Shown here in pieces: positions 6,200 to 40,612 of a stretch of DNA of 45,902 nucleotides. The notes beneath the pieces are model-generated. The model did no database searches and was not told the DNA's origin. It saw only the letters and a program-made list of their open reading frames with translations. The translations under genes and the position numbers were made by a program. The first letter of the stretch is position 1. The number at the start of each line of letters is the position of its first letter. Origin of the DNA: Bacteroidota bacterium (GTDB lineage: Bacteria; Bacteroidota; Bacteroidia; UKL13-3); assembly GCA_013298895.1 (NCBI GenBank), contig JAAFJM010000023.1, positions 1 to 45,902 of the forward strand. Reading direction: 5' to 3'.

Positions 6200-6846
6200 G
6201 ATGTTAAGTTTTTGGTGTACGGATTATGTTGTTTTTCAAAACCTACAGTGGTTGGCTCTCCATGTCCACTGTATATGATTGTTTCGTTGGGCAAGGTAAA
6301 TACTTTTGTGCTAATACTTTGTAATAATGTGGTTAAATCGCCTCCTGGCAAATCGGTTCTTCCAATACTCATGTAAAAAATCACATCACCACCAATTAAA
6401 AAGTTTTGCTCTTTACAGTAAAATGCAACACTTGCAATAGAATGCCCCGGTACCAAAAGGCAACTTAATTTGGAGTTACCAAACGTAATTTCAGAAGTTT
6501 CATCCATAAAATTTACATTTTCAGGAATAAACAAGTCAGGCATGTTGAACATCAAAGTCCAACGCTTGGTTTCTTTGTAAGTAATGAGTTCATCTTTATG
6601 CAAATACAATGGAATATTGTATTTATTAAGTACAAATTCATTGCCCAAAACATGGTCGATATGACAATGCGTATTTACTAATTTTACAGGTTTTAATTGC
6701 TTATCCTCCATAAAATTAACCAATTTTTTTTGCTCATCGGCTTTCATACATCCAGCATCAATTATAATGGCTTCATTGGTTTCATCATAAAGTATGTAAG
6801 TGTTTTCTTGAAAAACGTTAAATGTAAATTGTTGTATATAAATCAT
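6196..6846 (-). CDS. MBL-fold metallo-hydrolase (glyoxalase II-like)
   Basis: Metallo-beta-lactamase-fold hydrolase of 216 residues. The metal-binding set is complete: HCHIDH at 60-65, His135 (VPGHS), Asp154 (IGGDVIF) and His195 (SGHGEPT). The spacing resembles hydroxyacylglutathione hydrolase-like proteins, but the C-terminal glutathione-binding domain of true GloB is absent. It is best called a short GloB-like hydrolase with unknown thioester or other substrate. The protein is cytoplasmic. Its TGA overlaps the ATG of the Cys-rich membrane peptide gene, and the glycosyltransferase gene ends 18 bases upstream. Confidence 0.88.
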   Translation of the reverse strand: MIYIQQFTFNVFQENTYILYDETNEAIIIDAGCMKADEQKKLVNFMEDKQLKPVKLVNTHCHIDHVLGNEFVLNKYNIPLYLHKDELITYKETKRWTLMFNMPDLFIPENVNFMDETSEITFGNSKLSCLLVPGHSIASVAFYCKEQNFLIGGDVIFYMSIGRTDLPGGDLTTLLQSISTKVFTLPNETIIYSGHGEPTTVGFEKQHNPYTKNLTS

Positions 6847-6864
6847 TTGGAATGTATTCTATAT

Positions 6865-7974
6865 TTAATAATTACGCTCTTTCCAATTCATTTTAATAGG
6901 TAAAACATAAAAAATAGTTATGGCAAAGGTGCTTATTATGGAGTACATTTCGAATAAAATTAAATAAAAAATGTTGGTTTTTATTTGTAGTCTTTTTGAA
7001 ACTAAAATCGAAATACCTGTTTGAATAAAAAATTTGCATAACAATAAAGCAATTGCATTTTTTAAACTAAAAAATAAAAGAACGAACAAACAAGGGTAAA
7101 ATAAACCCATTAGTGCAAAAAGCATTTTCCATTTTAAATTTAAGTCTTGCGCACCAATAAGCCAGCGTTTGCGTTGATGCAAAAATTTTTTAAAGGAAAT
7201 TTGCTGTTTCGAAAAATTTAAATTTTTGGTTTCTAATAAATTGATTGCCTTGAATCCTTTTTGGGTGACCGCAGTAAAAATTGCTAAATCTTCTGTAACA
7301 CTAAAGTTCAATTTAGAGTATCCTCCAGTGGACTCATAAGCTATTTTTGTAAGTGCCATGTTATTACCAACTGCTGTACTTTTTAAACCCAAATTATCAA
7401 ATGCAGAAAGCAAACCTGAAAAATAAAGCCAATCAATACTTTGCATTTTGCCAAATAAAGTTGTTCCATTAACTACAGTTGTTCCTGAAACTATGCCTAC
7501 ATTTGGGTTATTAAAGTAAGGCAAGATACTTTTAACCCAAGTTGGTTTTACCTGAATATCAGCGTCAGTTACAAATATAATTTGTCCATTACATTGGTTA
7601 AACAAATGTGCCAAAACATTGGCTTTAGCCTTTGCATTTCCAAGGTTTTCAGTTATATCAATGGTTTTAAAATAATATTTGTTTTGGGTAAATTCACCTA
7701 TTAATTCTGCTGTTCTATCAGTTGATTGATCGTTGCCAATTAATATCTCTAACTTGTTTTTTGGATAGTCAAGTAGCTCGAGTGATTTTAAGCAATTGAT
7801 AATATTTTTTTCTTCATTTCGTGCAGCAATCAATATGGAAATAGAAGGTAAACTTTCATCATTCCTAAAAAATCTGGTTTGTTTAGGTAAATTCAATATT
7901 GAAAATAACAAGGTAAATTGCAAACAAACAAAGCAAAAAAGTAAGAGGGTTACAGCTATTTCCACAGCATGCAA
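6865..7974 (-). CDS. Membrane glycosyltransferase, family 2
   Basis: Processive-type GT2 glycosyltransferase of 369 residues. An N-terminal membrane span (about 5-28) precedes the GT-A domain: ISILIAARNEE (45-55), DxD motif DAD (137-139), acid TED (227-229), and QRKRW (267-271) of the QxxRW type. Three or so further spans follow from about 285. Such enzymes transfer sugar from a nucleotide donor to a lipid or growing chain at the inner membrane; donor and acceptor are unknown. The start is not ATG: TTG at 7974 is used here, GTG at 7965 is the alternative, and an in-frame stop lies three codons upstream. It heads the minus-strand run. Confidence 0.85.
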   Translation of the reverse strand: MHAVEIAVTLLLFCFVCLQFTLLFSILNLPKQTRFFRNDESLPSISILIAARNEEKNIINCLKSLELLDYPKNKLEILIGNDQSTDRTAELIGEFTQNKYYFKTIDITENLGNAKAKANVLAHLFNQCNGQIIFVTDADIQVKPTWVKSILPYFNNPNVGIVSGTTVVNGTTLFGKMQSIDWLYFSGLLSAFDNLGLKSTAVGNNMALTKIAYESTGGYSKLNFSVTEDLAIFTAVTQKGFKAINLLETKNLNFSKQQISFKKFLHQRKRWLIGAQDLNLKWKMLFALMGLFYPCLFVLLFFSLKNAIALLLCKFFIQTGISILVSKRLQIKTNIFYLILFEMYSIISTFAITIFYVLPIKMNWKERNY

Positions 7975-24193: not shown

Positions 24194-24520
24194 TCAAATC
24201 GAATCTTTCAGTTTGGTTAAAAACTCTTTTAGTTCAGTTAATTTTTCAATGGCTTCTTGGTTAGATTGAATTAGCGGTTTGGCATTTAGCTTTTCTTTAG
24301 CTCCTTCTATGGTATAACCTTCTATTTTTATTAAACGATATATTAGGTTAAAAGTTTCAATGTTTTTTTTGCTGTATTTGCGCGTTCCTTTAATGCTTTT
24401 CTCGGGTTTTAATTGTTTGAATTCTTTTTCCCAATACCTTATTAATGATACAGATACATTGAACTTTTTAGCAAGTTCACCAATATTAATATAGACTTTA
24501 TCAAGTTCTTCGCTTGGCAT
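24194..24520 (-). CDS. MerR-family transcriptional regulator
   Basis: Small DNA-binding protein of 108 residues. A winged-helix MerR domain occupies about 8-75: INIGELAKKFNVSVSLIRYWEKEF is the helix-turn-helix and KGTRKYSKKNIE the wing. The remaining part is a short helical coiled coil. No cysteine or other ligand-binding module is present, so it resembles the small MerR-like regulators common in Bacteroidota rather than metal sensors. The start at 24520 is preferred over an in-frame one at 24568: its ATG shares a base with the TAA of the upstream dioxygenase gene (TAATG), typical of coupled translation. Confidence 0.85.
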   Translation of the reverse strand: MPSEELDKVYINIGELAKKFNVSVSLIRYWEKEFKQLKPEKSIKGTRKYSKKNIETFNLIYRLIKIEGYTIEGAKEKLNAKPLIQSNQEAIEKLTELKEFLTKLKDSI

Positions 24521-25047
24521 TATACAAAACGAGGATCGGTTTCCATTACATGTCCACAGTTTTTGCAAGTACGCAATTCCTCTGAGGCATAGTATTCTTT
24601 AAATCTAGGTAAAAAATCGTTTTCAATATCGCTTAGCTCAAAACGGTATTCATGTAATTTATGATTGCATTTATCGCAAAACCACATCAATCCATCAACT
24701 AAACCTTTGCCTTTTCTTACACGTTCAATTACTAAACCAATTGAACCTTCAGAACGAATAGGTGAATGAGGTGTATTTGGCGGACATAAAAACATATCGC
24801 CAGGGCCTAATTTAATATCAACGGCTTTGCCTTCCTCTTGAATTCTAACAGTAATTTCGCCTTCTAATTGGTAGAACCATTCTTCCGATTCGTTGTAATG
24901 GTAATCTTTACGAGCATTTGGCCCACCTACAATCATGATAATAAAATCAGTTCCTTCTGGATATAAATTTTTATTAGCAACAGGTGGTTTTAATAAATGT
25001 CTGTTCTCGTCTATCCATTTTTGTAAATTAAAAGGTCTTCTTACCAT
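24520..25047 (-). CDS. 3-hydroxyanthranilate 3,4-dioxygenase
   Basis: Cytoplasmic cupin dioxygenase of 175 residues that opens the ring of 3-hydroxyanthranilate, giving the precursor of quinolinate in tryptophan breakdown or NAD synthesis. The iron ligands fit the known pattern: His50, Glu56 and His94; Arg46 and Arg98 sit where family members bind the substrate. The C-terminal extension holds CDKC (124-127) and CKNC (161-164), the rubredoxin-like metal site of bacterial enzymes. No other kynurenine-pathway gene is in the window. A TATATTTG box at 25084-25091 may drive it together with the MerR gene. Confidence 0.93.
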   Translation of the reverse strand: MVRRPFNLQKWIDENRHLLKPPVANKNLYPEGTDFIIMIVGGPNARKDYHYNESEEWFYQLEGEITVRIQEEGKAVDIKLGPGDMFLCPPNTPHSPIRSEGSIGLVIERVRKGKGLVDGLMWFCDKCNHKLHEYRFELSDIENDFLPRFKEYYASEELRTCKNCGHVMETDPRFV

Positions 25048-25872: not shown

Positions 25873-28140
25873 TTAAAACTTAAACCTGACCCCACCATAA
25901 ATCATTCTTCCAAATACAGGTCCCCAAACCATGCTGGCATCAAAATAACTACCAAAAGGATTTTGGGCATCAATAATTGGACTAGACTGTTTAAAATCTA
26001 ATAGATTTTCAATACCCGTGTATATGTCTAACTTTTTGTTAAATAAACTTTTGCTTACTTGAGTATTTAAAATGATAAAGCTTTCGGAATAATTGGGAAG
26101 TTGCATTTCTGCCGGATTTGATGAGGTGTTAGGCAATCGTTTTGCACCAATCCAATTCCAAGTAAAATCAAAATTCCATTTGTTTTTTGTATTATATCCA
26201 ATATTGAAAAAAGCCCTATGCGCTGCAATTAATGGAACTTCTCTCACTCCTATTGAGTCATATTGAGTTTTAACATCATAATATCTGTAAGCCATTCTAA
26301 CATCTAAGCGTTTTATAGGTTCATAATCTAATTGCACTTGTAAGCTATTTGAAAACGATTTTCCATTTAAATTATAAAACCTTACTTCATTCACCATTGC
26401 TTCTCTATCTACTACTATTTGGTTTTGGAAATAGGTGTAGTAATAATCTATACTAAAACTGCCTTTGCGATAATTTAACTTAAAATCGGATGTTAACGAT
26501 AAACCATAATTCCAAGCAACCTCTGGATTTAATCCATAAGCATTATTTAAATTATTAGAATTGAAAATAAATTTCCTTGAACTAGCCAATAGTCCGGTAT
26601 TTTCAGCAATAATATTTGCCGTTCTTTGTCCTCTCCCAGCACTAGCCCTTAAAACAGTTTGCTTATTAACAGCAAGTCTTGTATGAACACGAGGGGTATA
26701 AAACCAACCAAATAAATTATTAAAGTCTAATCGTTGTCCAGCAACCAAAGTAAATTTATTAAAATAACTGTAAGTATATTCAAAAAAAGCACCAATTACT
26801 TTTTCATCTCTTATAAATTTAAATTGTTTTGAAGTATTATTTTGTGCAAAAAAATTCTCTAAAACCTCATCGTAATAATCATTCAAATAACTAAAACCTG
26901 TTCTAAACTTGTGGTCGCTAGAACTAATGATTGATTGGTATATAAAATTGGCATAAAAGGATTCTTGCTTTCCTTTGTACAAATTATTACCAAAATATGA
27001 ATCATAACTTTGACCCACGGTTGAAACTTGTAAACCTAAACTTTTATAAATTTTCCTCGGGAAAACATAACCTATTTTTAGCCAAGCATCTCCTTTTAAA
27101 GCATTTACCTTGGTTCCATAAAATTTTAAGGATATGCGGTTATTTTCATCAAAATCAAATTGTCCACCAATTTTTTTATCATTTAAAGCAGCTAAACCAC
27201 CTTGAATGATAAACCCTTTGCCTTTATCATACTTAAACCTATAAGAAGAATTAATTTGATAGCCCAAAGGATTATCTAAATAACCATCGTTATTATTATC
27301 CATTCTTAAGGTTAAAGTACTTCCATGTAATAATATTGATTGACTAAATGATTTAGTTAATTTATTGGCAACAATCAAATTTGTTTCGTACCTACCACCT
27401 TCACTAGCATAAGCGTTAAAATATACTTTTTCTTTTACATCAGGTTTATGGAGCTCTGTATTTATTTGTCCAGCAATACTTTCAAATCCATTTACAACTG
27501 AACCAATTCCTTTTGTAACCTGAATACTATTTATCCAACTTCCGGGTGTATAAGCATTGCCATAATTAACAGCCAAGCCTCGTGCGCCAGGAATCATTTC
27601 TTGTGTAAGTTGTGTGTATTGGCTAGCCAAACCAAGCATTTGAATTTGTTTAGTTCCGGTTATGGCATCAGTTAAATTCACATCAACAGAAGGATTGGTT
27701 TCAAAGCTTTCACTTAAATTGCAACAAGCCGCTTTAAACAATTCCTTTTCATTCATTATAGTGGTTTTCCAAGGGTCAATAAAACTAACTTCAGAACTTT
27801 TTCTTTCTACCCTGATATTTACATCTTTCAGTTTGTTTTTAGTAATGAGCAGAATTTTTACAAATTTTTTCTCTGCCACAAAAATGGTATCAGTTTTATA
27901 ACCCACATAGGAAACTATTAGGTTTTTTGTGCTTTCTGTAAATGGAATAATAAATACACCATTACTGTCAGATATGACAATATTGGTTTCATTTAACCAC
28001 CTAATATATGCACCTTGTATTGGTGTAATATTTCCTTTTAAATCAGTATCTACAACAATTCCTTTGAGGTTCATTGTTTGCTGGGCGTTCACCAAATGGC
28101 ACAACAAAACAACTACTACGATTAAGCAGTATTTTTTCAT
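25873..28140 (-). CDS. TonB-dependent outer-membrane receptor (probable metal/copper)
   Basis: Outer-membrane receptor of 755 residues: signal peptide (to about 19, VNAQ), a carboxypeptidase-regulatory-like beta domain (about 24-100), a plug (about 115-230; ACCNLSESFETNPSVD, ITGTKQIQMLGL, WINSIQVTKGIGSV) and a 22-strand-type barrel ending in the aromatic FKF motif. Such receptors take up bound metals or other solutes using TonB energy. The Cys pair in the plug, and the HMA and MbnP/MbnH-like genes directly upstream on the same strand, suggest a copper-related substrate, which is inference. The HMA gene ends 27 bases before its ATG. Confidence 0.9.
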   Translation of the reverse strand: MKKYCLIVVVVLLCHLVNAQQTMNLKGIVVDTDLKGNITPIQGAYIRWLNETNIVISDSNGVFIIPFTESTKNLIVSYVGYKTDTIFVAEKKFVKILLITKNKLKDVNIRVERKSSEVSFIDPWKTTIMNEKELFKAACCNLSESFETNPSVDVNLTDAITGTKQIQMLGLASQYTQLTQEMIPGARGLAVNYGNAYTPGSWINSIQVTKGIGSVVNGFESIAGQINTELHKPDVKEKVYFNAYASEGGRYETNLIVANKLTKSFSQSILLHGSTLTLRMDNNNDGYLDNPLGYQINSSYRFKYDKGKGFIIQGGLAALNDKKIGGQFDFDENNRISLKFYGTKVNALKGDAWLKIGYVFPRKIYKSLGLQVSTVGQSYDSYFGNNLYKGKQESFYANFIYQSIISSSDHKFRTGFSYLNDYYDEVLENFFAQNNTSKQFKFIRDEKVIGAFFEYTYSYFNKFTLVAGQRLDFNNLFGWFYTPRVHTRLAVNKQTVLRASAGRGQRTANIIAENTGLLASSRKFIFNSNNLNNAYGLNPEVAWNYGLSLTSDFKLNYRKGSFSIDYYYTYFQNQIVVDREAMVNEVRFYNLNGKSFSNSLQVQLDYEPIKRLDVRMAYRYYDVKTQYDSIGVREVPLIAAHRAFFNIGYNTKNKWNFDFTWNWIGAKRLPNTSSNPAEMQLPNYSESFIILNTQVSKSLFNKKLDIYTGIENLLDFKQSSPIIDAQNPFGSYFDASMVWGPVFGRMIYGGVRFKF

Positions 28141-28167: not shown

Positions 28168-28515
28168 TTAGTCGTGGTGTGTATTATCATTATCCCTATA
28201 CATACAGCAATCAGGCAACTTTAAATAAACATTATCTGGTGCCTTTGTTTTTTCTGTATCATGCCCGCTATTAGCAATAAGTAGATGTAATTTCTCCAAA
28301 GAAATTTTATCAGCTATAAATACTACATCAAGTATTTTTGTATCAACATTCCATTCTGCCGACTTAACACCTTTTACATCTAGTGCAAGCTCTATTCTTT
28401 CTTTACATTGTGGGCAATTTCCAAATACTTTAAATTTAGCAGTGGTTGGTTTCTGGATATTTTTAAATGCCATTAAACTAAAGATGGCTAATATTATTAT
28501 AAAAAAGTTTTTCAT
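28168..28515 (-). CDS. Secreted or membrane-anchored HMA metal-binding protein
   Basis: Protein of 115 residues with an N-terminal hydrophobic signal or anchor (about 3-17), then a heavy-metal-associated domain (about 25-95). Its metal loop reads GNCPQCKERIE with Cys34 and Cys37, the CxxC arrangement of copper chaperones such as CopZ; the usual M/T before the loop is replaced. The tail holds a second Cys pair (LPDCCMYRD) and a His-rich end. The export signal puts it outside the cytoplasm, unlike CopZ. The ATG at 28515 is preferred to an in-frame start at 28554, which lies inside the preceding gene. It directly follows the di-heme peroxidase gene. Confidence 0.85.
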   Translation of the reverse strand: MKNFFIIILAIFSLMAFKNIQKPTTAKFKVFGNCPQCKERIELALDVKGVKSAEWNVDTKILDVVFIADKISLEKLHLLIANSGHDTEKTKAPDNVYLKLPDCCMYRDNDNTHHD

Positions 28516-28516
28516 T

Positions 28517-29581
28517 TTATGGTTTCTTAAAATTGGGATTGTTAATAAAATCATAGTCAGTAAGTGTTTTTAAAAATGATATGATTTGTTGTTTTTCTAT
28601 TTCGCTCATTCTACCCTTTTTGCCTAATGCAATATTTACATCTAAATTAGGTGAATTTTCAGCAAAACCAGTATTGTAATGTTCTAATACTTCTTCTAAA
28701 GTTTTAAATCTCCCATCATGCATATATGGAGCTGTTAATTCTACATTTCTGAGAGTTGGAGTTTTAAATTTACCCTTATCAGTCTCTTTCAGTGTTACTC
28801 TGTATCTACCCAAATCAGTAAAAACAGAATCGAGTCCATTGTTTTTAAAATCAAAATCGGTAAAAGTACTGCCCAATACATGACAATGGAAGCAGTCTCC
28901 CTTGGTTTGATCTTCAATTAATTCCATTCCTTTTAACTCATCAAAAGTTAATTCTACTTCACCTCTTACATACTTATCATACTTACTATTTGCTGAAATA
29001 ACAGTTCTTTCAAACTGAGCAATAGCTTTCATAATATGTTTTGTAGTTATTGAATCAGAACCAAAAGCACGCTTAAATAATTTTTTGTAGGTAGCATCTG
29101 CATTTAGTTTCCTTAAAACATTAGGTAACGTTTCGTGCATTTCAATAGGATTGGTAATCGGCCCAATAACTTGATCTTCTAAAGTAGCAGATCCTCCATC
29201 CCAAAAAAATGCTCTTTCCCAAGCAAGGTTCATTATAGGCATTGCATTTCTATTACCTATTTCTCCTGTTATTCCTTTACTAAATTGCAAAGTACTATCA
29301 GTAAATGCAAATTTTTGGTTATGGCAACTTCCGCAAGATTGTGTGTTATCCAACGAAAGAATAGGATCATAAAAAAGTTTCCTACCTAAAGCAATTCCTT
29401 CAACAGTTAATAAATTTGAAGCAGGTATATTAATTTTAGGAAAACCAACCGGTGTATTTAAATTAAATAAAACAGCAGGAGTATCTATGACATTATTTGA
29501 AATGGTAATAACAGGATCTTTAGAGCAAGAAAATATTAATGCTACAAATGTTATTAATAAATAAAAAATATTTTTTTTCAT
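28517..29581 (-). CDS. MbnH/MauG-like di-heme cytochrome c peroxidase, lipoprotein
   Basis: Exported di-heme protein of 354 residues in the bacterial cytochrome c peroxidase / MauG / MbnH superfamily. A lipobox (IFSC, Cys19) suggests membrane anchoring. Heme sites are CGSCH (83-87) and CFHCH (230-234); further family motifs are GRKLFYDP, SCGSCHNQKFAFTD, FWDGG and TPTLRNVELTAPYMHDGRF. In methanobactin loci MbnH oxidises a Trp of its partner MbnP to kynurenine. The MbnP-like gene is one base upstream here, so the MbnH role is favoured over simple peroxide removal. The HMA gene starts one base after its stop. Confidence 0.88.
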   Translation of the reverse strand: MKKNIFYLLITFVALIFSCSKDPVITISNNVIDTPAVLFNLNTPVGFPKINIPASNLLTVEGIALGRKLFYDPILSLDNTQSCGSCHNQKFAFTDSTLQFSKGITGEIGNRNAMPIMNLAWERAFFWDGGSATLEDQVIGPITNPIEMHETLPNVLRKLNADATYKKLFKRAFGSDSITTKHIMKAIAQFERTVISANSKYDKYVRGEVELTFDELKGMELIEDQTKGDCFHCHVLGSTFTDFDFKNNGLDSVFTDLGRYRVTLKETDKGKFKTPTLRNVELTAPYMHDGRFKTLEEVLEHYNTGFAENSPNLDVNIALGKKGRMSEIEKQQIISFLKTLTDYDFINNPNFKKP

Positions 29582-29582
29582 A

Positions 29583-30341
29583 TTATTCTACCTTTCCAAA
29601 AGAAAATGACTGTTCTAAATTAGCTTTTAAGTTAGCTATCCAAAAAACATCAGCTGCTGATTCAGATTGGCGGTCATTATCAATATTGAAATTGATAATC
29701 TTTTTAGCTGAATAAGCTTTATTCAAATCAAAATTAACAGTTAATTTCTTAGTTAGACTTGAGTTTATATCTACTGATGGTAATGAAAACGCTACAAAAC
29801 CCCTTCCAGGACTTGTTCCTAAATGAAAACGTAATGGCTTTGTTTGGTTCAATGAATCTATATAGCTTCCTTCATGTTTAAAAAATATATAACCAGTGTT
29901 CCAGGTCCATAACATACCAAAACTAGGATCTAAAAAACCATCTTGTACCCCACTTGTATTTCTTAAAGAATCTACACCTAAAATAAATTTCATTTTAGTA
30001 TACTTTGCATAAGGCACATTTAAAAGTGTGAATGTATTTTGTTCAGGCCTATCCATATCTATTAAATTATAGTTTTTGGCAAAAAACTCATCATTATTTT
30101 CACTAACCAATACAACATTGGTTACATAATATTTGAGTAAACTAACTGAATATTTATTTTTAGCTTCATTAGTATATTGAGAACTAACTGTATTTATTGG
30201 AACTCCATCTACGGTGTTATTAAAATTAATAGTTAAATTAGTCGTCTTACTGTTTGAAACAGGAATTTTAGTTTCTTCTTTATCGCATGAAACTAATAAA
30301 ATGCTGGTTATTATTAATAAATTTATTATTGTTTTTTTCAT
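29583..30341 (-). CDS. MbnP-like copper-associated lipoprotein
   Basis: Exported lipoprotein of 252 residues with lipobox LVSC (Cys19). The beta-rich body resembles the MbnP family: LTINFNNTVDGVPI near the start, YSVSLLKYYVTNVVL, KMKFILGVDS, and the hallmark GMLWTWNTGY with Trp145 and Trp147, then FKHEG and LRFHLGTS. In known MbnP one Trp of the W-x-W region is converted to kynurenine by MbnH to make a copper site. Which Trp is modified here is inferred. The ATG at 30341 is used, since an in-frame start at 30362 adds only 7 residues ahead of a normal signal peptide. Confidence 0.82.
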   Translation of the reverse strand: MKKTIINLLIITSILLVSCDKEETKIPVSNSKTTNLTINFNNTVDGVPINTVSSQYTNEAKNKYSVSLLKYYVTNVVLVSENNDEFFAKNYNLIDMDRPEQNTFTLLNVPYAKYTKMKFILGVDSLRNTSGVQDGFLDPSFGMLWTWNTGYIFFKHEGSYIDSLNQTKPLRFHLGTSPGRGFVAFSLPSVDINSSLTKKLTVNFDLNKAYSAKKIINFNIDNDRQSESAADVFWIANLKANLEQSFSFGKVE

Positions 30342-30358
30342 TTTAGTTAATATTAAAC

Positions 30359-30374
30359 GCAAACGGCTGTTTGC
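30359..30374. promoter_or_regulatory. Inverted repeat upstream of the MbnP-like gene
   Basis: GCAAAC (30359-30364) and GTTTGC (30369-30374) flank GGCT, just before the MbnP-like start at 30341. It has the form of a dimer-binding operator, but no regulator is encoded nearby. Confidence 0.3.
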
Positions 30375-30423
30375 ATAATTCGAGAACTATTGAATTTGGT
30401 ATTGCATTAAGTAATGAAATATA

Positions 30424-30813
30424 CTAAATACGAAGAAAAACAGAACTTAATTGTATTAAAATTAAAGGGGAAATATTACTGTTACTAACATTATTACTAT
30501 TAAAAAAAAAGCGATAATTAGTAGGAATGTATTTTATAATAAAATTACTCAAAACTAGAAAATTCTTATAAAATTTAGGCTCTAATATTTTTATTAAATT
30601 GGTGTATGAATTATCAAATTTACAAGTAAAAGTAAAATCATGGCAACAAGATTTATTGGACATTTTACCACAATCGCAAACCTCACTTTTTTGTTCAAAA
30701 AAACTGATACTCGATATTGCTCCTCCACAAAAATGTATTGTAGCGCTAACCTTTGTTGCTAGAACAAGATAAACTAATGTAAGTATTATGTATGTTATCT
30801 TTTTCAAATACAT
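30424..30813 (-). CDS. HYC_CC_PP-type small Cys-rich exported protein
   Basis: Small exported protein of 129 residues in the HYC_CC_PP style, a Bacteroidota family of unknown role found near metal genes. A signal peptide (about 1-24) is followed by IHFCGG (the H-Y/F-C motif, 27-29), a C-x-C (46 and 48), and SCCHD (the CC pair, 56-57). The third family element, PP near the C-terminus, reads SP. No enzyme motif is present; the cysteines suggest metal binding. The ATG at 30813 is chosen over a TTG at 30828. It precedes the MbnP-like gene by 82 bases on the same strand. Confidence 0.75.
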   Translation of the reverse strand: MYLKKITYIILTLVYLVLATKVSATIHFCGGAISSISFFEQKSEVCDCGKMSNKSCCHDFTFTCKFDNSYTNLIKILEPKFYKNFLVLSNFIIKYIPTNYRFFFNSNNVSNSNISPLILIQLSSVFLRI

Positions 30814-30863
30814 AACAATATTAAACAAAATAAATTAAATAAAATCTTAATTTTAAACAGTTA

Positions 30864-32811: not shown

Positions 32812-34125
32812 TTAAACTCCTACATCGTGCATTGCACTTTCGTATATGAAAGGATGACGGGTGGGGTATAAATTTGCTTTAGTTAATCCTTTTAACACAA
32901 CAGTCAAAAACAACCCAGCAAAGAACAATAACATACCAATTTCCATGAATCCAATTCCTTGGTTCGGAATTTCAATTGAACCGGTTGGATTGTGCTCTGA
33001 AATTGCAGTTGGCAAATCCATTGCACCAGGCATAACCATTAATAAACAGTCATTCCAATGTCCAATTAAAATAGCACCGCCAACAAAATAACCAACTTTT
33101 CTATTTCTTTTAGCATCTCTCATCATAAAAATGAAAAATGGTACTACGAAATTTAAAACAATGTTTAAGTAAAAGTTGAATTGGTAAGAACCGAACATAC
33201 GTTCTTTATAATAAACTACCTCTTCAGGAATATTTGCGTACCAAATTAACAAGAATTGAGCTGTCCACATGTAAGTCCAAAACACTGAGAATGCAAACAT
33301 AAATTTACCTAAATCGTGTTGGTGTTCGTCAGTTACAATTCCTAAATACCCTTTACCTCTTAAATACCAAACTAATAAATAAGTTACTGTTAATGCACTA
33401 ACCCATCCTGTAGCAAAGTTATAAATGGTAAAAATAGTTGAATACCAATGAGCATCAACACTCATCATTAAATCCCATGCAAACATGGAGAAAGTAAAAC
33501 CGAATACCACTAAAAATACTGTTGAAATTCTAAAGTTTTTATCAAAATTTTCAACTCCACCAACTAAATCTTCATTTCTAGAGTTTTTGCGTATTTGAGC
33601 TGCACAGAAAATCCAAAATGCAGTAAATAATACTAAGCGAACTAAATAAAATGGTTGTGATAAGTACCAAGTTTTTTTAGCTAATAATGGATCTGTTTCC
33701 ATTACTCCTGGATGAGCCCAATGATAGATACCTCCATGCAATACATAAAAGTTAACTAAAATTATTGTAAGCAATAATCCTGCTCCAATAATCATATAAG
33801 TACTCATTGCTTCAGGAATTCTTCTTATAGCTACATACCAAGCAGCATTAGCTAATTGGCTAATTACTACAAATATGATTGCACAAGTTGCAATAATAAA
33901 TGTAAAGTAACTATCAACTAATAAATTACCCCAAAAACGTTTTGAAACTAAGTGGTGTAAGTCATCAGCAGTTAAATTCATACCTTCAACTGAGGGATGA
34001 TAGGTAAAATAACCTAAGATAGTTAAAAGTAAACCTACAATCATTAAACCGTATGACCACTTTTTGTTACCGTCAGTTATAGTATATTTTTCTTCTTTAA
34101 TTTCTATATGTGTATCGTGTGACAT
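32812..34125 (-). CDS. actF: Alternative complex III subunit ActF (quinol:cytochrome c oxidoreductase)
   Basis: Integral membrane subunit of 437 residues with about ten spans, last in the ACIII operon. It resembles ActF/ActC NrfD-like proteins: paired helices with HHLVSKRFWGNLLVDSYF, NAAWYVAIRRIPEAM, and WYANIPEEVVYYKERMFGSYQF. ACIII replaces cytochrome bc1 in many Bacteroidota: it oxidises menaquinol and passes electrons to cytochrome c or a terminal oxidase. Position after the mono-heme subunit and before a terminator matches the usual ActABCDEF order. The cytochrome oxidase genes that often follow are absent. Confidence 0.9.
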   Translation of the reverse strand: MSHDTHIEIKEEKYTITDGNKKWSYGLMIVGLLLTILGYFTYHPSVEGMNLTADDLHHLVSKRFWGNLLVDSYFTFIIATCAIIFVVISQLANAAWYVAIRRIPEAMSTYMIIGAGLLLTIILVNFYVLHGGIYHWAHPGVMETDPLLAKKTWYLSQPFYLVRLVLFTAFWIFCAAQIRKNSRNEDLVGGVENFDKNFRISTVFLVVFGFTFSMFAWDLMMSVDAHWYSTIFTIYNFATGWVSALTVTYLLVWYLRGKGYLGIVTDEHQHDLGKFMFAFSVFWTYMWTAQFLLIWYANIPEEVVYYKERMFGSYQFNFYLNIVLNFVVPFFIFMMRDAKRNRKVGYFVGGAILIGHWNDCLLMVMPGAMDLPTAISEHNPTGSIEIPNQGIGFMEIGMLLFFAGLFLTVVLKGLTKANLYPTRHPFIYESAMHDVGV

Positions 34126-34152
34126 AATTTTTTTTCAAATAATTAATTCAAC

Positions 34153-34779
34153 TTATTTTTTAACTGTGGTATCAGCTGCTGCTGTAGCTGTAGCTTCAGT
34201 TGCAGTTGTTTTGAAAGTGTTGATGTAATGTATTACTTGCCAAACTTGGTTTGGAGAAAGAACTGTACCATAAGCACCCATTAAGTTTTTACCGTATTTA
34301 ATAGAGTAAAATGCTTTACCATCATTAATAGTAGGTAATCTATCAGCGTAACTAGGTACCTTAGGGAACTTACCATCAGCTACAATAGTACCATTACCTT
34401 GACCATCTTCTCCATGGCAAGGAGTACAGTTAATATTATATAATCTTTTACCTTCTGCTAAATTATAAACAGTTGGAGCAGTTGGATTAACCAAAGAACC
34501 TGCAGCTTCATAAGCTTCAGCTGTTTTTGGGAAATCATATTTTGCATAATCCGATTGTCCGCGAGCAATAGTATGTTTTGCAGGTAAACGCATATTCATA
34601 CCATTAGGATTAATTGTATTAGGCTTGCTCTCTTCTTGGCTTAATGGTTCATAAGCAAATGAATGATACATATTTGGCGCATACTCCATACCAGGGTTGT
34701 CGCCACCAGCAGAACAAGATGCCATAAATGCCATGCCTGAACCTACTAAAATTGCTAAACTTATATTTCTTAGTTTCAT
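34153..34779 (-). CDS. actE: ACIII mono-heme cytochrome c subunit ActE, lipoprotein
   Basis: Membrane-anchored mono-heme cytochrome c of 208 residues. The signal peptide ends in lipobox MASC (Cys22); the heme site is CTPCH at 118-122 within LYNINCTPCHGEDGQGNG, with a probable axial Met in NLMGAYG. Upstream residues with ANMYHS and QSDYAKY belong to the ACIII-specific extension. In ACIII this subunit carries electrons out of the complex at the periplasmic face. The ATG at 34779 is used instead of an in-frame TTG at 34794, leaving 4 bases after actD and a clean lipobox. Confidence 0.92.
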   Translation of the reverse strand: MKLRNISLAILVGSGMAFMASCSAGGDNPGMEYAPNMYHSFAYEPLSQEESKPNTINPNGMNMRLPAKHTIARGQSDYAKYDFPKTAEAYEAAGSLVNPTAPTVYNLAEGKRLYNINCTPCHGEDGQGNGTIVADGKFPKVPSYADRLPTINDGKAFYSIKYGKNLMGAYGTVLSPNQVWQVIHYINTFKTTATEATATAAADTTVKK

Positions 34780-34783
34780 AGTA

Positions 34784-35311
34784 TTAGTCTTCAAACTCCC
34801 TTTCTCTTATTTCAATAGCACCATTATTTTTCAAAATTGAACTTAATTCAGCTACATCAGTTTTGTTAGGAATAATATCAATAGCAACTACAAATAAATC
34901 GTCAGTTACTCGAATATCAATAATATCTGCATTTTTACCCCAAACCATTTTGTTTACAGCAAAAAAACATCCAACCATTCCAAAGGCAGTACATAAAATT
35001 GCTAATTCAAAAGTAATTGGAATATATGTTGGAATATGTAACGAAGGTTTACCACCAACGTTCATTTGCCAATCAAAATATGAAGCATAAGTTTGTAGGG
35101 TCAATGCTAGCACAATACCAGTCATTGCAAAACAAAATGCTGCCACTGTTAATCTTGATCTTTTAATTCCTAATACTCTATCCATTCCATGAATTGCAAA
35201 TGGAGAATATACATCTCTAACTCTGTATCCATCATGAATCAACTTTTTAGTTGTATCATAAATGTGGTCAGGATCATTATAAATACCTAAAATTACTTTG
35301 TTAGTGTCCAT
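34784..35311 (-). CDS. actD: ACIII subunit ActD (DUF3341)
   Basis: Inner-membrane subunit of 175 residues. A soluble N-terminal part (about 1-55; LGIYNDPDHIYDTTKKLIHDGY) is followed by two membrane spans (about 55-80 and 95-120) and a short soluble tail. This is the DUF3341 pattern of ActD in the alternative complex III; the subunit has no cofactors and is structural. Its first 11 bases overlap the end of actC, showing tight operon packing. Confidence 0.92.
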   Translation of the reverse strand: MDTNKVILGIYNDPDHIYDTTKKLIHDGYRVRDVYSPFAIHGMDRVLGIKRSRLTVAAFCFAMTGIVLALTLQTYASYFDWQMNVGGKPSLHIPTYIPITFELAILCTAFGMVGCFFAVNKMVWGKNADIIDIRVTDDLFVVAIDIIPNKTDVAELSSILKNNGAIEIREREFED

Positions 35312-36749
35312 GAACTGAATCTCCTTTCGTTTCGTGAGCGTGTTGTGGCATTTTGTGATTGTTATTTAATAATTCAGTGTAATGTTTTTCTAATTCTAAA
35401 GCATGTTTAGTTTTAACAATACTTTTCAATTCACTCATATTAATTGAAGGTAAGAATTTCATGAATAAGAAGAACAAGAAGAAGAATAATCCAAATGAAC
35501 CTAATAATATTGAGAACTCAACAATAGTTGGAGTGTACATACTCCAGCTTGAAGGTAAGAAATCTCTATGTAATGATGTTACGATAATAACGAAACGTTC
35601 AAACCACATACCTATATTTACAATAATAGACATGATGAAAATAAACCAAGGTGTAGTTCTAGCCCATTTAGACCAAAATACTTGAGGAGCAACTAAGTTA
35701 CAACCCATCATAATCCAATAACTCCAACCGTATGGTCCAAAAGCTCTATTTAAGAATGCATATTGTTCATATTCAACACCTGAATAAGCAGCTACGAAAA
35801 ACTCAGTAATGTAAGCTAAACCAACCAAAGTTCCTGTTAACATTACAACTCTACACATAGCATCTAAATGTTCTGATGTGATGTAATCTTTGTAGTTTAA
35901 AACTTCACGAGCAACAACTAACAATGTTAACACCATACCAAATCCAGAGAAAATAGCCCCAGCAACGAAGTAAGGAGGAAAAATGGTAGTATGCCAACCT
36001 GGTACTAATGAAGTAGCAAAATCCATTGATACAATTGAGTGAACTGATAATACCAAAGGTGTAGAAATAGCAGCTAAAATTAAACTGATAACCTCATATC
36101 TATGCCATACTTTAGTAGATCCATTCCAGCCCATTGCAAAAAAACCGTACCAAAACTTACGTGCTTTAGTTGTAGCTCTATCGCGCACTGTAGCAATATC
36201 TGGTATTAAACCAACATACCAAAATACCAAAGATACAGAGAAGTATGTGGAAATCGCAAATACGTCCCAAACCAATGGAGAGTTGAAGTTAACCCATAAA
36301 CTACCAAAAGCATTAGGAAGTGGAATTGGCCAATAAGCCACCCACGGACGACCCATATGCGATAAAATGAATGATGCAGCACATAGAACCGCAAATATTG
36401 TCATTGCCTCTGCAGAACGGTTAATTGACATACGCCATTTTTGACGGAATAATAATAATACTGCTGAGATTAAGGTTCCAGCATGACCTATACCTACCCA
36501 AAATACAAAGTTGGTAATATCAAAAGCCCATCCAACAGTTTTATTTAAACCCCAGGCTCCTAATCCTACAAGCATGGTGTAAGTAGTTGAAAAAATCCAA
36601 ATTGCTAAAACGATTGATGATAAACCAAATCCAAGCCACCAAGCCTTTGATGGCTTGTTTTCGATTGGACGAGTGATATCTTTAGTTATATCACTGTAGG
36701 TTTTACCACCTGTTACGAGCAAATCTCTAATTGGTGATTCGTATGACAT
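35301..36749 (-). CDS. actC: ACIII subunit ActC, NrfD-like membrane protein
   Basis: NrfD/PsrC-family membrane subunit of 482 residues with about ten spans. Conserved ACIII stretches include WAFDITNFVFWVGIGHAGTLISAVL (about 92-116), FILSHMGRPW and VLSVHSIVSMDFATSLVPGWHTTIFPPYFVAGAIFSG (quinone-site region), and WSYWIMMGCNLVAPQVFW. It forms the quinol-facing membrane part that works with the Fe-S domain of ActB. The His-rich C-terminus (HAHETKGDSVHGH) is exposed. Its ATG lies 46 bases downstream of the actB stop codon. Confidence 0.93.
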   Translation of the reverse strand: MSYESPIRDLLVTGGKTYSDITKDITRPIENKPSKAWWLGFGLSSIVLAIWIFSTTYTMLVGLGAWGLNKTVGWAFDITNFVFWVGIGHAGTLISAVLLLFRQKWRMSINRSAEAMTIFAVLCAASFILSHMGRPWVAYWPIPLPNAFGSLWVNFNSPLVWDVFAISTYFSVSLVFWYVGLIPDIATVRDRATTKARKFWYGFFAMGWNGSTKVWHRYEVISLILAAISTPLVLSVHSIVSMDFATSLVPGWHTTIFPPYFVAGAIFSGFGMVLTLLVVAREVLNYKDYITSEHLDAMCRVVMLTGTLVGLAYITEFFVAAYSGVEYEQYAFLNRAFGPYGWSYWIMMGCNLVAPQVFWSKWARTTPWFIFIMSIIVNIGMWFERFVIIVTSLHRDFLPSSWSMYTPTIVEFSILLGSFGLFFFLFFLFMKFLPSINMSELKSIVKTKHALELEKHYTELLNNNHKMPQHAHETKGDSVHGH

Positions 36750-36795
36750 GTAATTATATTATTTTAAATTTTATTTAATTGATTGAATAATTGAA

Positions 36796-37962
36796 TTATG
36801 AATGAGCATGTTCAGCTGCTTTATGTTCTTCATGTTTTTCATCATGCTTAGCAGGTGCTTTTTGCTCGCCAGCAATTGGCTCGTTAACATTTCTTATCTT
36901 TGTCATATAACCAACCGATGGTTGAACGTTATATTCTTCTAATAATACATATTTACGTTCGTTTTTGAATAATTTAGAAATTTCACTGTTAGGATCATTC
37001 ATATCACCAAAAACTAAAGCATCAGCAGGACAAGATTGTTGACAAGCAGTTTTAACATCACCATCAACCATTTTTCTATTCTCAATTTTAGCTTTTAACT
37101 TGCTAGCTTGAATTCTTTGAACACAGAATGAACATTTTTCCATTACACCTCTAGAACGAACTGTAACATCAGGATTGATTACCATTCTTCCTAGATCATT
37201 ATTGAAATGGAAATCAAATTGATCATTTTCTCTGTATTTAAACCAATTAAACCTACGAACTTTATATGGGCAGTTATTTGCACAATATCTTGTTCCTACA
37301 CAACGATTGTAAGCCATTTGATTCAATCCTTCTGAACTGTGAACAGTAGCTAATACCGGACAAACAGTTTCACAAGGAGCATGACCACAATGTTGACACA
37401 TCATTGGTTGATGCATAACAGTTACGTGTTCAAAATCAATTTTATTATTTTTATCGTTGTATTCTTTTTCTTTAGTTGATGGTTTGCCTGTAGCTAAATT
37501 TTTGAAGCTATAGTATCTATCAATTCTAATCCAGTGCATTTCGCGACTGTTTAAAATTTCTTTTCTACCAACAACAGGTACGTTATTTTCAGCTGAACAA
37601 CTTACTACACAAGCACCACAACCAGTACAAGCATTCATATCGATTGCCATTCCCCATTTGTGACCTTTGCTATCGTGCTCTTCCCATAATGAAATGATGT
37701 GAGCATGATCGTTATTACCTGCACTAGGATTTTTAATATACTCATCCAAAGAAGCTTCACGTAATAAGTTTCTACCTTCAATAGTATGATGTGTTTGAGT
37801 TTGTGCTAATTCATAACCATCGTCAGTTTTAGTTAAGGTTACACCATTCGCTGTATTGTATGCATATGTACCATTTTCAAAACCAACTAAGCTAAATGCA
37901 TTTTTACCTAAACCTTTTCCAAAATTAGAGGCAACCTTACCGATTAATTTACCATAACCCAT
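36796..37962 (-). CDS. actB: ActB C-terminal part: Fe-S ferredoxin domain (gene disrupted)
   Basis: C-terminal remnant of ActB. It is open in its own frame from base 38100, with the first ATG at 37962; the 46 codons before that ATG continue the molybdopterin-dinucleotide-binding-like barrel (KEGDIVTLKAG, LPVLIQPGQA). The following ferredoxin-like domain is complete, with four Cys groups: CTGCGACVVSC, CQHCGHAPCETVC, CVGTRYCANNC and CSFCVQRI with CQQSC, for three [4Fe-4S] and one [3Fe-4S] cluster in ACIII. The upstream half lies in another frame, separated by an apparent deletion. Whether this piece is made on its own is unknown; actC follows 46 bases later. Confidence 0.85.
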   Translation of the reverse strand: MGYGKLIGKVASNFGKGLGKNAFSLVGFENGTYAYNTANGVTLTKTDDGYELAQTQTHHTIEGRNLLREASLDEYIKNPSAGNNDHAHIISLWEEHDSKGHKWGMAIDMNACTGCGACVVSCSAENNVPVVGRKEILNSREMHWIRIDRYYSFKNLATGKPSTKEKEYNDKNNKIDFEHVTVMHQPMMCQHCGHAPCETVCPVLATVHSSEGLNQMAYNRCVGTRYCANNCPYKVRRFNWFKYRENDQFDFHFNNDLGRMVINPDVTVRSRGVMEKCSFCVQRIQASKLKAKIENRKMVDGDVKTACQQSCPADALVFGDMNDPNSEISKLFKNERKYVLLEEYNVQPSVGYMTKIRNVNEPIAGEQKAPAKHDEKHEEHKAAEHAHS

Positions 37963-38063
37963 AGCTAAACCAATAGTAGAATTAGCTTGTCCTGGTTGAA
38001 TTAAAACTGGTAATCCTTCAATGGTAGTTTTTCCTGCTTTTAAAGTTACTATATCACCTTCTT

Positions 38064-39278
38064 TTAAATTAAATTGATCAGCAGTAACTTTACCAATGCT
38101 TCAAAAGCTGCATCATCTCCACTTACTTGATTTGAATAATTATCCAAATCAACTGTAGAACCAATATTACCTAATAAACCATTAATAGCTGCAACTAATA
38201 ATTGGTTATCTAAGTTATTTGAGCCTGAAACTACTAAAGATTGACCCTTAGCTGCTAATAATTCTTTAGCTGTTAAATCAATTGAATTTAAAGCCACTTC
38301 AATTGTAGGCACTGAGAAAGTAGGAGCACCAGTACTAGCTGCTATTTTGTTATAAATGCTTAACAATACAGCACCTTCCATTGAAGGTTTGATTGGAAAA
38401 CGATAATCAGCATTTGAACCAGTTAACGATAAGTTACTTTCGAAATGCAAATGACGGCTCATTTTCTTATCTTCAGCTTTTCTGTTTTTTGCCCAAGCCT
38501 TTGTGTATTCTACTGGCGAAATCCAAGTTCCTAAGAAATCGGCACCAAAACTTACAATAACTTTGGCTTTATCAAAATTATATGAAGGTACAACAGCTTT
38601 ACCAAAAGCGCGTTTATTGGCTTCAATTAATGCTGCGTATGAAATTGCCTCATAACCCACAACTTTAGTTGAAGGATATTTAACTGTAAATTCTGAGATT
38701 ATTTTTTTTGTAGATGGACTAGTAATAGTTCCACTTACTATTCTAATATTTTTAGCACTTGATAATGCTTTTTTAATATCTGCATCAACTGTTTCCCATG
38801 TCGATTCATTAGCGTCTTTGCGAGGAGCTTTTAAACGCTCATTGTCGTATAGACCTAATAAACTTGCATGACCAGTAGCACAAACTCCGCCTTTAAATAC
38901 AGGAGAATCAGCATTACCTTCGATTTTAACAGGACGGCCTTCACGTGTTTTAACCAAAATACTGCAACCAGTAGAGCAAGCTCCGCAAGTAGTAGCATAC
39001 CAATTAGGAACACCAGGAGTAATATTTTCAGGTTTTACAATGTAAGGAATAGCATTTTTTACAGGTATATTATTACAAGCCGCTAATGCTACAGCTGAAA
39101 TACTAAAACCAAAATACTTTAAAAAATCACGTCTATTTGATTGCATTTCACCATCAGAATCAGTTAATACTTCTTCTAAAGGAATTCCTTGTGCAAATTC
39201 ATTCTTTTTAGCAGCAACAAATTTTGGATCATTGTTTAACTCTTCTAAACCTTTCCAGTATTTATTTTTATTTTCCAT
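38064..39278 (-). CDS. actB: ActB N-terminal part: molybdopterin-oxidoreductase-like (truncated)
   Basis: N-terminal piece of ActB (404 residues) with the twin-arginine-type signal NRRDFLKYFGFS (Arg49, Arg50), typical of the TAT-variant ActB of Bacteroidota, then a molybdopterin-oxidoreductase-like domain without evident cofactor ligands: CGACSTGCSILVKTREGRP, FKGGVCATGHAS, VIVSFGADFLGTW. The last residues after AAFEALVK run out of frame (LLLINLI) to a stop at 38064. The normal ActB of this group is about 1,000 residues; both halves here sum to about 827. ActB feeds electrons through Fe-S clusters, so loss of the middle should be damaging unless the sequence is wrong. Confidence 0.85.
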   Translation of the reverse strand: MENKNKYWKGLEELNNDPKFVAAKKNEFAQGIPLEEVLTDSDGEMQSNRRDFLKYFGFSISAVALAACNNIPVKNAIPYIVKPENITPGVPNWYATTCGACSTGCSILVKTREGRPVKIEGNADSPVFKGGVCATGHASLLGLYDNERLKAPRKDANESTWETVDADIKKALSSAKNIRIVSGTITSPSTKKIISEFTVKYPSTKVVGYEAISYAALIEANKRAFGKAVVPSYNFDKAKVIVSFGADFLGTWISPVEYTKAWAKNRKAEDKKMSRHLHFESNLSLTGSNADYRFPIKPSMEGAVLLSIYNKIAASTGAPTFSVPTIEVALNSIDLTAKELLAAKGQSLVVSGSNNLDNQLLVAAINGLLGNIGSTVDLDNYSNQVSGDDAAFEALVKLLLINLI

Positions 39279-39334
39279 TTAAAATTTTTTCTTCGTTAAT
39301 AAATTAAGAAATTATATCTGTTTTTGGTTATTTA

Positions 39335-40612
39335 CTAGTAATGGCATTTAGCACATTCTAATCCACCGTTTTGAGCAACAGTTATAAAATCTTTGTTGCT
39401 TGCTTTTAAGTCTTTATGTAATTTTTCGTAGTAATCATTATTTGCCACATCAACTTTAGCTTCACGGTGACAGTTAATACACCATCCCATTTGTAAACTG
39501 CGTTGTTGGCTAACAACTTTCATTTTTTCAATTGGACCATGACATGATTGACACTCTACTTTTCCAATTTTTACGTGTTGAGCATGGTTAAAATAGGCGT
39601 GGTCAGGTAAATTGTGAATTCTTACCCATTTAATTGGTTGTTGTTTATAACCTTCAATGTAAGCTCCTTTTTCAGCATCATAACCAACTGCATTATAAAT
39701 TTTTTGAATTTCAGGTGATACTTGACCATTGTATTTTTCTTTTGCCTTAACGTACATGTGGCAATTCATACAAGTACTTGCAGATGGAATTGATGCTTGT
39801 TTACTTTTATCTGCACTTGAGTGACAATACTGACAATTGATTTTGTATTTACCAGCATGTAATTCATGAGAGTAATTGATAGGTTGAACAGGAGCATATC
39901 CTTTTTGAACACCTACTTTTTTATTTGCAAAATCGAAACCATATAAACCAAGAACTAAGGTAATAATGGCACCAACAGCTAAGGTTCCTACAACTGGATG
40001 TTTAACAAATAATTTGTAGCGAGTTGATTTCTTATTTTGTTTCCAAGGTAATTTAAAATCTTCTGGATCTAATTCTTCTGGAAACTTTTCGTTGTAAATT
40101 CTTTCAATCACTTTTCTAATGTTTACCAAAATAAAAATGATAAACAATAAAATTACTGCAAAAATGCTCAAACCAATAAGCATTGTTTGAGAATAAAATC
40201 CTTCACCTGTAGTTGGAGCAGCACCATCAGTAGGAGCAGTTGCACCTCCACCAGCTTGAGCTGGGGCAGCACCACCTGTTTTTACATACTCTAAAATTGA
40301 TTTTACTTGTCCGTCTGAAAACTGAGGGAATGCAGTCATTACTGACTGATTGTACTCATTGTAGATTTTTAATGCTTCAGCATCGCCAGACTTAACCATT
40401 GCTTGTGAATTTTTAATCCACTTGATTAACCATGCTTCATTGTGACGCTTGTCCACATCCTTAAGAGCTGGACCTACAACCTTTTCATTAATTGCGTGAC
40501 AAGATGTACAATTTGCGTTAAATAATTTTTCACCTTCGGCTACATCGGCCAGTGTTACTTTAGCTCCTAAAAAGAAAGCTGTTAGTAGAAGTAATAGTTT
40601 ATTCAGTCTCAT
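39335..40612 (-). CDS. actA: ACIII multiheme cytochrome c subunit ActA
   Basis: Membrane-anchored multiheme cytochrome of 425 residues, first in the ACIII operon. After a signal peptide (about 1-22) comes a mono-heme domain (CTSCH, 35-39; FPQFSDGQVKSILEYV), then a low-complexity Ala/Pro/Thr linker, two membrane spans (about 140-165 and 205-225) and a C-terminal five-heme domain with CQYCH, CMNCH, CQSCH, CINCH and CAKCH. The C-terminal part is the standard pentaheme ActA; the extra N-terminal heme domain makes six heme sites in all. Start ATG 40612. A TAGATTTG promoter box lies 24 bases upstream. Confidence 0.92.
   Translation of the reverse strand: MRLNKLLLLLTAFFLGAKVTLADVAEGEKLFNANCTSCHAINEKVVGPALKDVDKRHNEAWLIKWIKNSQAMVKSGDAEALKIYNEYNQSVMTAFPQFSDGQVKSILEYVKTGGAAPAQAGGGATAPTDGAAPTTGEGFYSQTMLIGLSIFAVILLFIIFILVNIRKVIERIYNEKFPEELDPEDFKLPWKQNKKSTRYKLFVKHPVVGTLAVGAIITLVLGLYGFDFANKKVGVQKGYAPVQPINYSHELHAGKYKINCQYCHSSADKSKQASIPSASTCMNCHMYVKAKEKYNGQVSPEIQKIYNAVGYDAEKGAYIEGYKQQPIKWVRIHNLPDHAYFNHAQHVKIGKVECQSCHGPIEKMKVVSQQRSLQMGWCINCHREAKVDVANNDYYEKLHKDLKASNKDFITVAQNGGLECAKCHY

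Follow-up and report, generated by a model that had tools for sequence, protein, structure and literature searches.

A lineage-specific insertion of MbnP and MbnH genes into a HYC-HMA-receptor operon of Bacteroidota

According to the available sections of a 2013 paper, the gene pair for MbnP and MbnH is conserved far beyond the producers of methanobactin (PMC3621798). The window analysed here, a stretch of 45,902 nucleotides from a Bacteroidota bacterium (contig JAAFJM010000023.1 of assembly GCA_013298895.1), raises the question of what such a pair does in the middle of an operon for a TonB receptor. Five genes lie in a row on its minus strand and encode a HYC_CC_PP protein (HYC), an MbnP-like lipoprotein, an MbnH-like di-heme enzyme, an exported HMA protein and the receptor. 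The insertion of MbnP/MbnH between HYC and HMA is specific to one lineage, the window's genus, and we lean slightly towards reading the outcome as a copper-acquisition operon that gained a kynurenine-type Cu(I) site.

Distribution of the module and of the insertion

The five-gene set is present in all ten genomes of the window's genus that were searched, so that co-occurrence in close relatives, which the preliminary description of this locus had named as a check, is borne out. In seven of them (the window, L033, L034, L036, L038, L039 and L040) a single contig holds the whole set, in two a contig end cuts it (L037, within the receptor, and L041, within MbnP), and in genome G038 it is split over two contigs (L035 and L163); in L037 and L039, an extra small open reading frame (ORF) was called between HMA and receptor.

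Outside the genus, HYC, HMA and receptor recur as a module of their own. A receptor profile (A1), built from ten receptors of this type, gave one match each in 72 of 296 phylum genomes, which represent 46 of 140 genera (E 1e-150); no more than three candidates were scored in any genome, so that the per-genome counts are lower bounds. In the window's family, where 16 candidates were scored, the profile matched 53 of 64 genomes (E 1e-120), four of them twice, and in G003 and G004 the two matches are, or may be, broken pieces of one receptor. Neighbourhoods were taken for 71 of the 72 phylum loci, the remaining one being the window itself. Within two genes and on the same strand, HYC accompanies 51 of these receptors, HMA 46, both 37 and either 60, by neighbour profiles whose construction and iteration drew on the same loci; as a control, a match to HYC or HMA was found in one of 413 ORFs lying five or more genes from the receptor. 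The HMA profile furthermore matches the receptor itself at nine of the 71 loci (L055, L064, L068, L091, L094, L095, L097, L098 and L100), which are probable HMA-receptor fusions to judge from their sequences; Pfam places an HMA domain in both of those examined, the score passing the cut-off in L091 and narrowly missing it in L068. Six of the 11 loci that lack an adjoining HYC or HMA are such fusions, and HYC or HMA is thus adjacent or fused in 66 of 71. The receptors share a Cys pair in the plug, which the preliminary description had picked out in the window: Cys139 and Cys140 (27721-27726, minus strand, within KAACCNLSESFETN) are invariant in 72 of 72 aligned full receptors. A regular expression for the pair found it in 100 of 125 sequences, and 24 of the 25 left unmatched hold CC within residues 60-320, the last one, L161, being a fragment.

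MbnP and MbnH, on the other hand, are not a regular part of this module. Neither lies within four genes of the receptor at any of the 71 phylum loci, 14 of which have fewer than four ORFs on one receptor side. Among the 40 family loci (L124-L163), MbnH stands near the receptor only in L163, a locus of the window's genus. Neither MbnP nor MbnH is seen at the remaining 39, which come from genera other than the window's with g4 and g9 set apart (see below) and which all extend two or more ORFs beyond the receptor on its upstream side. A scan of Bacteroidota genome contigs kept 80 MbnP loci, with MbnP detected in 79 and MbnH no more than two genes away in 72 of these 79; HMA and receptor follow downstream of MbnP only in L164-L167, which, to judge by their lengths, are contigs of four of the ten genus genomes. 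MbnP-MbnH pairs are thus common and the HYC-HMA-receptor module is recurrent, so that it is their union that is seen in the window's genus alone. In trees from quick searches, the receptors of the genus form one clade (100), with g4 and g9 apart, and so do its receptor-linked MbnH (98 and 99), whose nearest neighbours are MbnP-linked MbnH from other lineages. The earlier suggestion that the five-gene set is a general system of Bacteroidota therefore holds for its two parts, each of which is widespread, but not for the joint set, which is found at none of the 71 phylum loci and none of the 39 family loci outside g4 and g9. At one further locus, L170, a 66-residue Cys-rich ORF (6752-6952) that reads as metallothionein-like lies between a HYC-like gene and MbnP/MbnH.

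Proteins of the five-gene row and its flanks

The row and its family assignments were recovered as previously described, with NF047658, PF20243 and PF03150 above their cut-offs or strong and HMA just under. All features of the row lie on the minus strand. The HYC_CC_PP ORF (30424-30828, likely ATG at 30813) encodes a Cys-rich protein with a signal peptide-like start, which scores 33.1 bits against NF047658 (curated cut-off 28); its six Cys stand at ORF positions 34, 51, 53, 61, 62 and 69, numbered from 30828. A gap of 82 nucleotides separates it from MbnP, and the last four genes are nearly contiguous, as had been noted, with gaps of 1 nucleotide between MbnP and MbnH, 1 between MbnH and HMA and 27 between HMA and receptor, sizes that depend on the ORF coordinates and on the start codons chosen.

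The MbnP-like lipoprotein (ORF 29583-30362, likely ATG at 30341) has a lipobox-like LLVSC and scores 140.7 bits against PF20243 (cut-off 27). Its assignment was carried by the fold search, since sequence and profile searches of the PDB were weak: a single-sequence search gave no match at E 0.1, and profile searches reached 7L6G only, at E 0.28 and 0.64. An AlphaFold2 model predicted from a 106-row alignment (predicted local distance difference test, pLDDT, 90.6) placed six chains of 7L6G, the crystal structure of MbnP from Methylosinus trichosporium OB3b, at the top of a Foldseek search (E 1e-8 to 1e-6; next entry at E 0.037). In VIA-align, 206 residues of the model were aligned with 7L6G (Z 17.6, root mean square deviation 3.3; next entry Z 5.2), and no other PDB entry rose above Z 5.2 in this comparison, which is not evidence that others are absent.

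The W-x-W of this protein, whose intactness had been claimed before, belongs to a Met150-x-Trp152-x-Trp154 motif (29901-29915) that is the predicted site of Trp-to-kynurenine conversion; the numbering is that of the ORF from its TTG start, and Trp152 and Trp154 are Trp145 and Trp147 from the ATG. The three residues are invariant in all 106 aligned rows; because 64 of these came from the genome contig scan, with a pattern demanding M-x-W-x-W, conservation is better counted on the 42 rows found without the pattern, where it is also complete (42 of 42, L013 and L034 being one gene twice). Work on MbnP published in PNAS in 2021 reportedly established conversion of the first Trp of W-x-W to kynurenine, with copper held near a His and a Met; the same paper is said to discuss MbnP genome neighbourhoods. 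His180 (29823-29825) is a candidate copper ligand in the present protein. Its column holds His in 90 of the 106 rows and Asp in 16, with Asp in no receptor-linked MbnP of the alignment, and these two forms suggest that Bacteroidota MbnP may have two kinds of metal site.

The residues CDKEE after the lipobox Cys resemble the lipoprotein export signal of Capnocytophaga. They were considered as a surface-export signal and dropped, since similar C-x-K-D/E starts occur in many other MbnPs and are not specific to the receptor-linked ones. At two other loci, an MbnP domain is followed by a type IX secretion system (T9SS) sorting tail, PF18962 (L048:7845-8801 and L049:2760-3710), with two MbnH copies adjoining; from these T9SS-tailed proteins, surface-bound MbnP probably exists in the window's family.

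The MbnH-like di-heme enzyme (28517-29581) is a probable lipoprotein, its N-terminus reading as lipoprotein-like, as does that of MbnP, and it scores 211 bits against PF03150 and 267.2 bits against TIGR04039. Both of its CXXCH heme-binding sites are intact, which agrees with the preliminary description: CGSCH at residues 83-87 (29321-29335) and CFHCH at residues 230-234 (28880-28894). Among distinct Bacteroidota MbnH ORFs of 320 residues or more, all 118 examined have exactly two CXXCH. The top PDB match of the window's enzyme is 6e1c, an entry named 'Di-heme enzyme' (E 3.3e-50), which we take to be MbnH; the peroxidase 1iqc matches at E 2.3e-45. In the PDB search alignments, Tyr302 pairs with Tyr in 6e1c and with Met in 1iqc, presumably at the axial heme ligand site, with Tyr replacing the peroxidase Met. 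A pattern for this axial position matched 61 of 126 sequences, every one with Tyr, the remaining 65 being unmatched by the pattern.

The exported HMA protein (ORF 28168-28554, likely ATG at 28515) carries CPQC (residues 47-50 when numbered on the longer ORF) and has a DCCMYRDNDNTHHD tail at its C-terminus. It scores 24.3 bits against PF00403, just below the cut-off of 24.8, and matches an NCBIfam CopZ-type model at E 1.4e-5, far below the cut-off of that model. The TonB receptor (25873-28140) scores 77.6 bits against PF00593 and its AlphaFold2 model reaches a pLDDT of 91.2. The Foldseek search with this model is uninformative on the substrate, as BtuB, FpvA, Cir and OprC score alike; OprC is among the matches at 13-14% identity, not above other receptors.

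The source genome (98.6% complete) has no match to PF05114, so that no mbnB is visible, as stated earlier; mbnC and the precursor gene mbnA were not searched for. A separate second MbnP-MbnH pair lies on a different contig (L002). The top-scoring MbnH-like match of the genome is found on yet another, C9 (G000:C9:35299-36186), which has no PF20243 match.

Pfam matches in the flanks scanned (from 22841 and up to 40612) comprise riboflavin synthesis, a MerR regulator, 3-hydroxyanthranilate dioxygenase, transaldolase, sulfatase and alternative-complex-III-type subunits. Two genes downstream of the operon (24194-25047) are those for the MerR-family regulator and for 3-hydroxyanthranilate dioxygenase, which belongs to the kynurenine pathway of free tryptophan; among the relatives fetched, this flank recurs only in the near-identical L040. 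Upstream of the locus, an alternative complex III-type operon occupies 32812-40612 on the minus strand, with ActD (PF11821) at 34784-35311, NrfD, Fe-S and multiheme cytochrome subunits, and with no Pfam match for 32812-34125. It directly adjoins the locus in L037, and in L040 the sulfatase lies between, as in the window.

A thioredoxin-like protein at the position of MbnP in g4 and g9

In g4 (four of four) and g9 (two of three), two other genera of the window's family, the order is HYC, thioredoxin-like protein, MbnH, HMA and receptor, with a second HYC placed between MbnH and HMA in L044. The thioredoxin-like genes that take the place of MbnP lie at L042:3680-4441, L043:3664-4425, L044:7400-8152, L045:7251-8006, L046:7662-8426 and L047:7082-7843. 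Their products, of about 250 residues, match PDB 2m72 in a profile search (E 5.8e-6, residues 34-158), and the two tested with Pfam carry the T9SS sorting domain PF18962 (7.3e-14 in L042 and 2.6e-11 in L044). The receptor-linked MbnH of g4 and g9 form a separate clade of the MbnH tree (100). Constraining all receptor-linked MbnH to a single origin costs 22 log units and gives a borderline p of 0.034 in the approximately unbiased test, which was run only once the tree was known, with four long-branch rows omitted and two truncated rows swapped for full copies of the same genes. The slot between HYC and HMA has thus probably been filled at least twice, as far as sequences can tell; two or more recruitments are the simplest account, and the operon may have passed from one of the genera g4 and g9 to the other.

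The thioredoxin-like profile matches at least 26 of 64 family genomes and at least six of 296 phylum genomes, which are lower bounds because at most 42 or at most 9 candidates per genome were scored, and four of the matches cover little beyond the tail. In L279, from another family, the thioredoxin-like protein directly adjoins MbnH and has no Pfam match to a T9SS tail; further copies adjoin HYC, HMA, CusB-like and resistance-nodulation-division (RND) genes and a T9SS-tailed multicopper oxidase. Nine positions separate the MbnH-adjacent copies from the others (7 of 7 versus 0 of 20), Tyr54 and Tyr150 among them, position 150 being a gap in 15 of the 20. We offer as a tentative proposal, possible rather than probable, that MauG/MbnH-type enzymes filled the slot at least twice with different clients, and that the enzyme of g4 and g9 oxidises a residue of the thioredoxin-like protein, itself destined for the cell surface; Tyr54 and Tyr150 would be the candidates. 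L268, one of the 20 other copies, weighs against these linkage-specific residues as a signature of MbnH clients, since an MbnH-like gene lies three genes away on the same strand and yet the residues are missing. Trp104 was also considered as the MbnH substrate and dropped, being present in 7 of 7 MbnH-adjacent copies and in 20 of 20 other homologues as well. Two observations concern the surroundings of these copies. L261:5445-9201 is a gene row of HYC, a T9SS-tailed thioredoxin-like protein and the T9SS-tailed multicopper oxidase. A recurrent protein of 340-374 residues, whose signal-like start is followed by a Cys-Cys motif (GCCSGGSG or a close variant), adjoins the thioredoxin-like gene at L260:8514-9563, L264:3641-4684, L271:6664-7686, L273:6532-7656 and L277:5562-6611.

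Proposed copper acquisition, its alternatives and related systems

We infer copper as the metal, kynurenine formation, the direction of uptake and the route of hand-over, and in this account the parts would work together as follows. The TonB receptor would carry copper or a small copper chelate over the outer membrane, and the Cys-Cys pair of its plug, together with the periplasmic HMA protein, would form the hand-over route, with HYC_CC_PP as an accessory Cys-rich metal-binding protein. MbnH, as a di-heme enzyme of MauG type, would oxidise Trp145 of MbnP (ATG numbering) to kynurenine and thereby create a high-affinity Cu(I) site, and the lipid-anchored MbnP, needing MbnH in order to bind Cu(I), would scavenge or buffer copper beside the receptor. 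Copper is the likeliest metal for the module, judged from domain knowledge and neighbours.

Several points weigh against this account. First of all, MbnP scores 39.2 bits against MbnP_like_WxW (TIGR04052), an NCBIfam equivalog whose cut-off is 140, and MbnH likewise stays under the NCBIfam TIGR04039 cut-off of 362.85, which is exceeded in none of the 64 genomes of the window's GTDB family. Second, the four-Cys feature that appears in the chain name of 7L6G is missing from MbnP, whose sole Cys is that of the lipobox. Third, the receptor was not detected in 224 of the 296 phylum genomes at the threshold used, and where the MbnP/MbnH insertion is absent no part of the module points to copper specifically. 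Finally, homologues of HYC, HMA and the thioredoxin-like protein also adjoin RND efflux and multicopper oxidase genes, which fits tolerance as well as uptake.

This last point leads to the chief alternative, copper tolerance, in which the operon would sense or sequester excess copper at the outer membrane and in the periplasm, MbnP would be a sink, and the receptor would serve recycling or another role. Thioredoxin-like homologues sit with CusB-like genes in L260, with HMA and RND genes in L264 and with HYC and the multicopper oxidase in L261, and one HYC-HMA-receptor operon (L064) continues towards an RND pump. We nevertheless consider tolerance unlikely for the window, as TonB receptors are importers and the flanks scanned there gave no Pfam match to an RND pump, a P-type ATPase or a multicopper oxidase. 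The receptor might instead import a metal other than copper, or a metallophore of foreign origin (zinc, nickel, mercury or a chalkophore-like molecule), with MbnP/MbnH as mere neighbours; the CXXC of HMA proteins and Cys pairs bind soft metals besides copper, and the module normally occurs without MbnP, so that the idea has some appeal, but a copper-type pair placed mid-module and kept in every genus genome searched makes it decidedly improbable. MbnH might also act as an ordinary di-heme peroxidase that leaves MbnP unmodified, given how strongly it resembles the cytochrome c peroxidases of bacteria (PF03150, 1iqc); this is very improbable in view of the best match to 6e1c, the pairing of Tyr302 with Tyr in 6e1c and with Met in 1iqc, and the proximity of MbnH to MbnP at most Bacteroidota loci.

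Copper acquisition with a kynurenine-type site has partial counterparts elsewhere. The locus resembles MbnP/MbnH of M. trichosporium OB3b in the predicted MbnP fold, in the aligned Met-x-Trp-x-Trp and in the di-heme partner, and differs from it in having no mbnB match in the genome, no four-Cys feature and scores below both equivalog cut-offs, as well as in its HYC and HMA partners and its different receptor. With isolated MbnP/MbnH pairs of Methylosinus, which lie near MbnT-like TonB receptors in the sections available (PMC3621798), it shares a receptor nearby. MbnP/MbnH pairs without methanobactin, and near TonB receptors in Methylosinus, are thus already known from that text, and the lack of methanobactin genes, to which the preliminary description had drawn attention, is not a new point. 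CorA/CorB of Methylomicrobium album and MopE/SACCP of Methylococcus capsulatus likewise combine a copper protein of kynurenine type (predicted in the present case) with a di-heme MauG-like partner and lack a methanobactin operon, according to the portions available (PMC3912023; PMC3621798). CorA and MopE are there described as containing kynurenine, as co-transcribed with a di-heme partner similar to bacterial cytochrome c peroxidase (BCCP) or MauG, as surface-located in some cases and as copper-repressed (PMC3912023); unlike the window's MbnP, CorA uses two His, and the available accounts of CorA and MopE mention no TonB receptor module. OprC, the copper receptor of Pseudomonas aeruginosa, has the TonB receptor fold and a Cys in the plug, within a CxxxM-HxM site (from the excerpt available of PMC8610252), whereas the window's plug has a Cys-Cys pair (CCNLSES) with no CxxxM at the pair. 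CrtA of Bordetella is also a TonB receptor for copper, but in the part of its description available it has no conserved Cys or Met, has PepSY-type neighbours and occurs mostly in beta- and gamma-Proteobacteria (PMC12914433).

In the literature searched, which is incomplete for subscription papers, no description was met of the HYC-HMA-receptor module and its Cys pair, of the operon that joins this module to MbnP/MbnH and is confined to one genus, or of the variant with a thioredoxin-like protein; all of these appear to be new. By title and start of abstract, no paper on MbnP/MbnH with this receptor in Bacteroidota was found among the matches listed, with subscription literature mostly uncovered.

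In that literature, outer-membrane copper transport in Bacteroidota is poorly described, and the recurrent HYC-HMA-receptor module, in which the Cys pair of the plug is invariant, offers a concrete candidate for copper uptake at this membrane. The genus-specific insertion links the MbnP/MbnH pair to such a receptor in Bacteroidota, in a source genome without an mbnB match. Furthermore, the parallel insertion in g4 and g9 points to a possible second client of MauG-type enzymes; if true, the thioredoxin-like protein would be a new kind of substrate for the MauG superfamily, and one destined for the cell surface.

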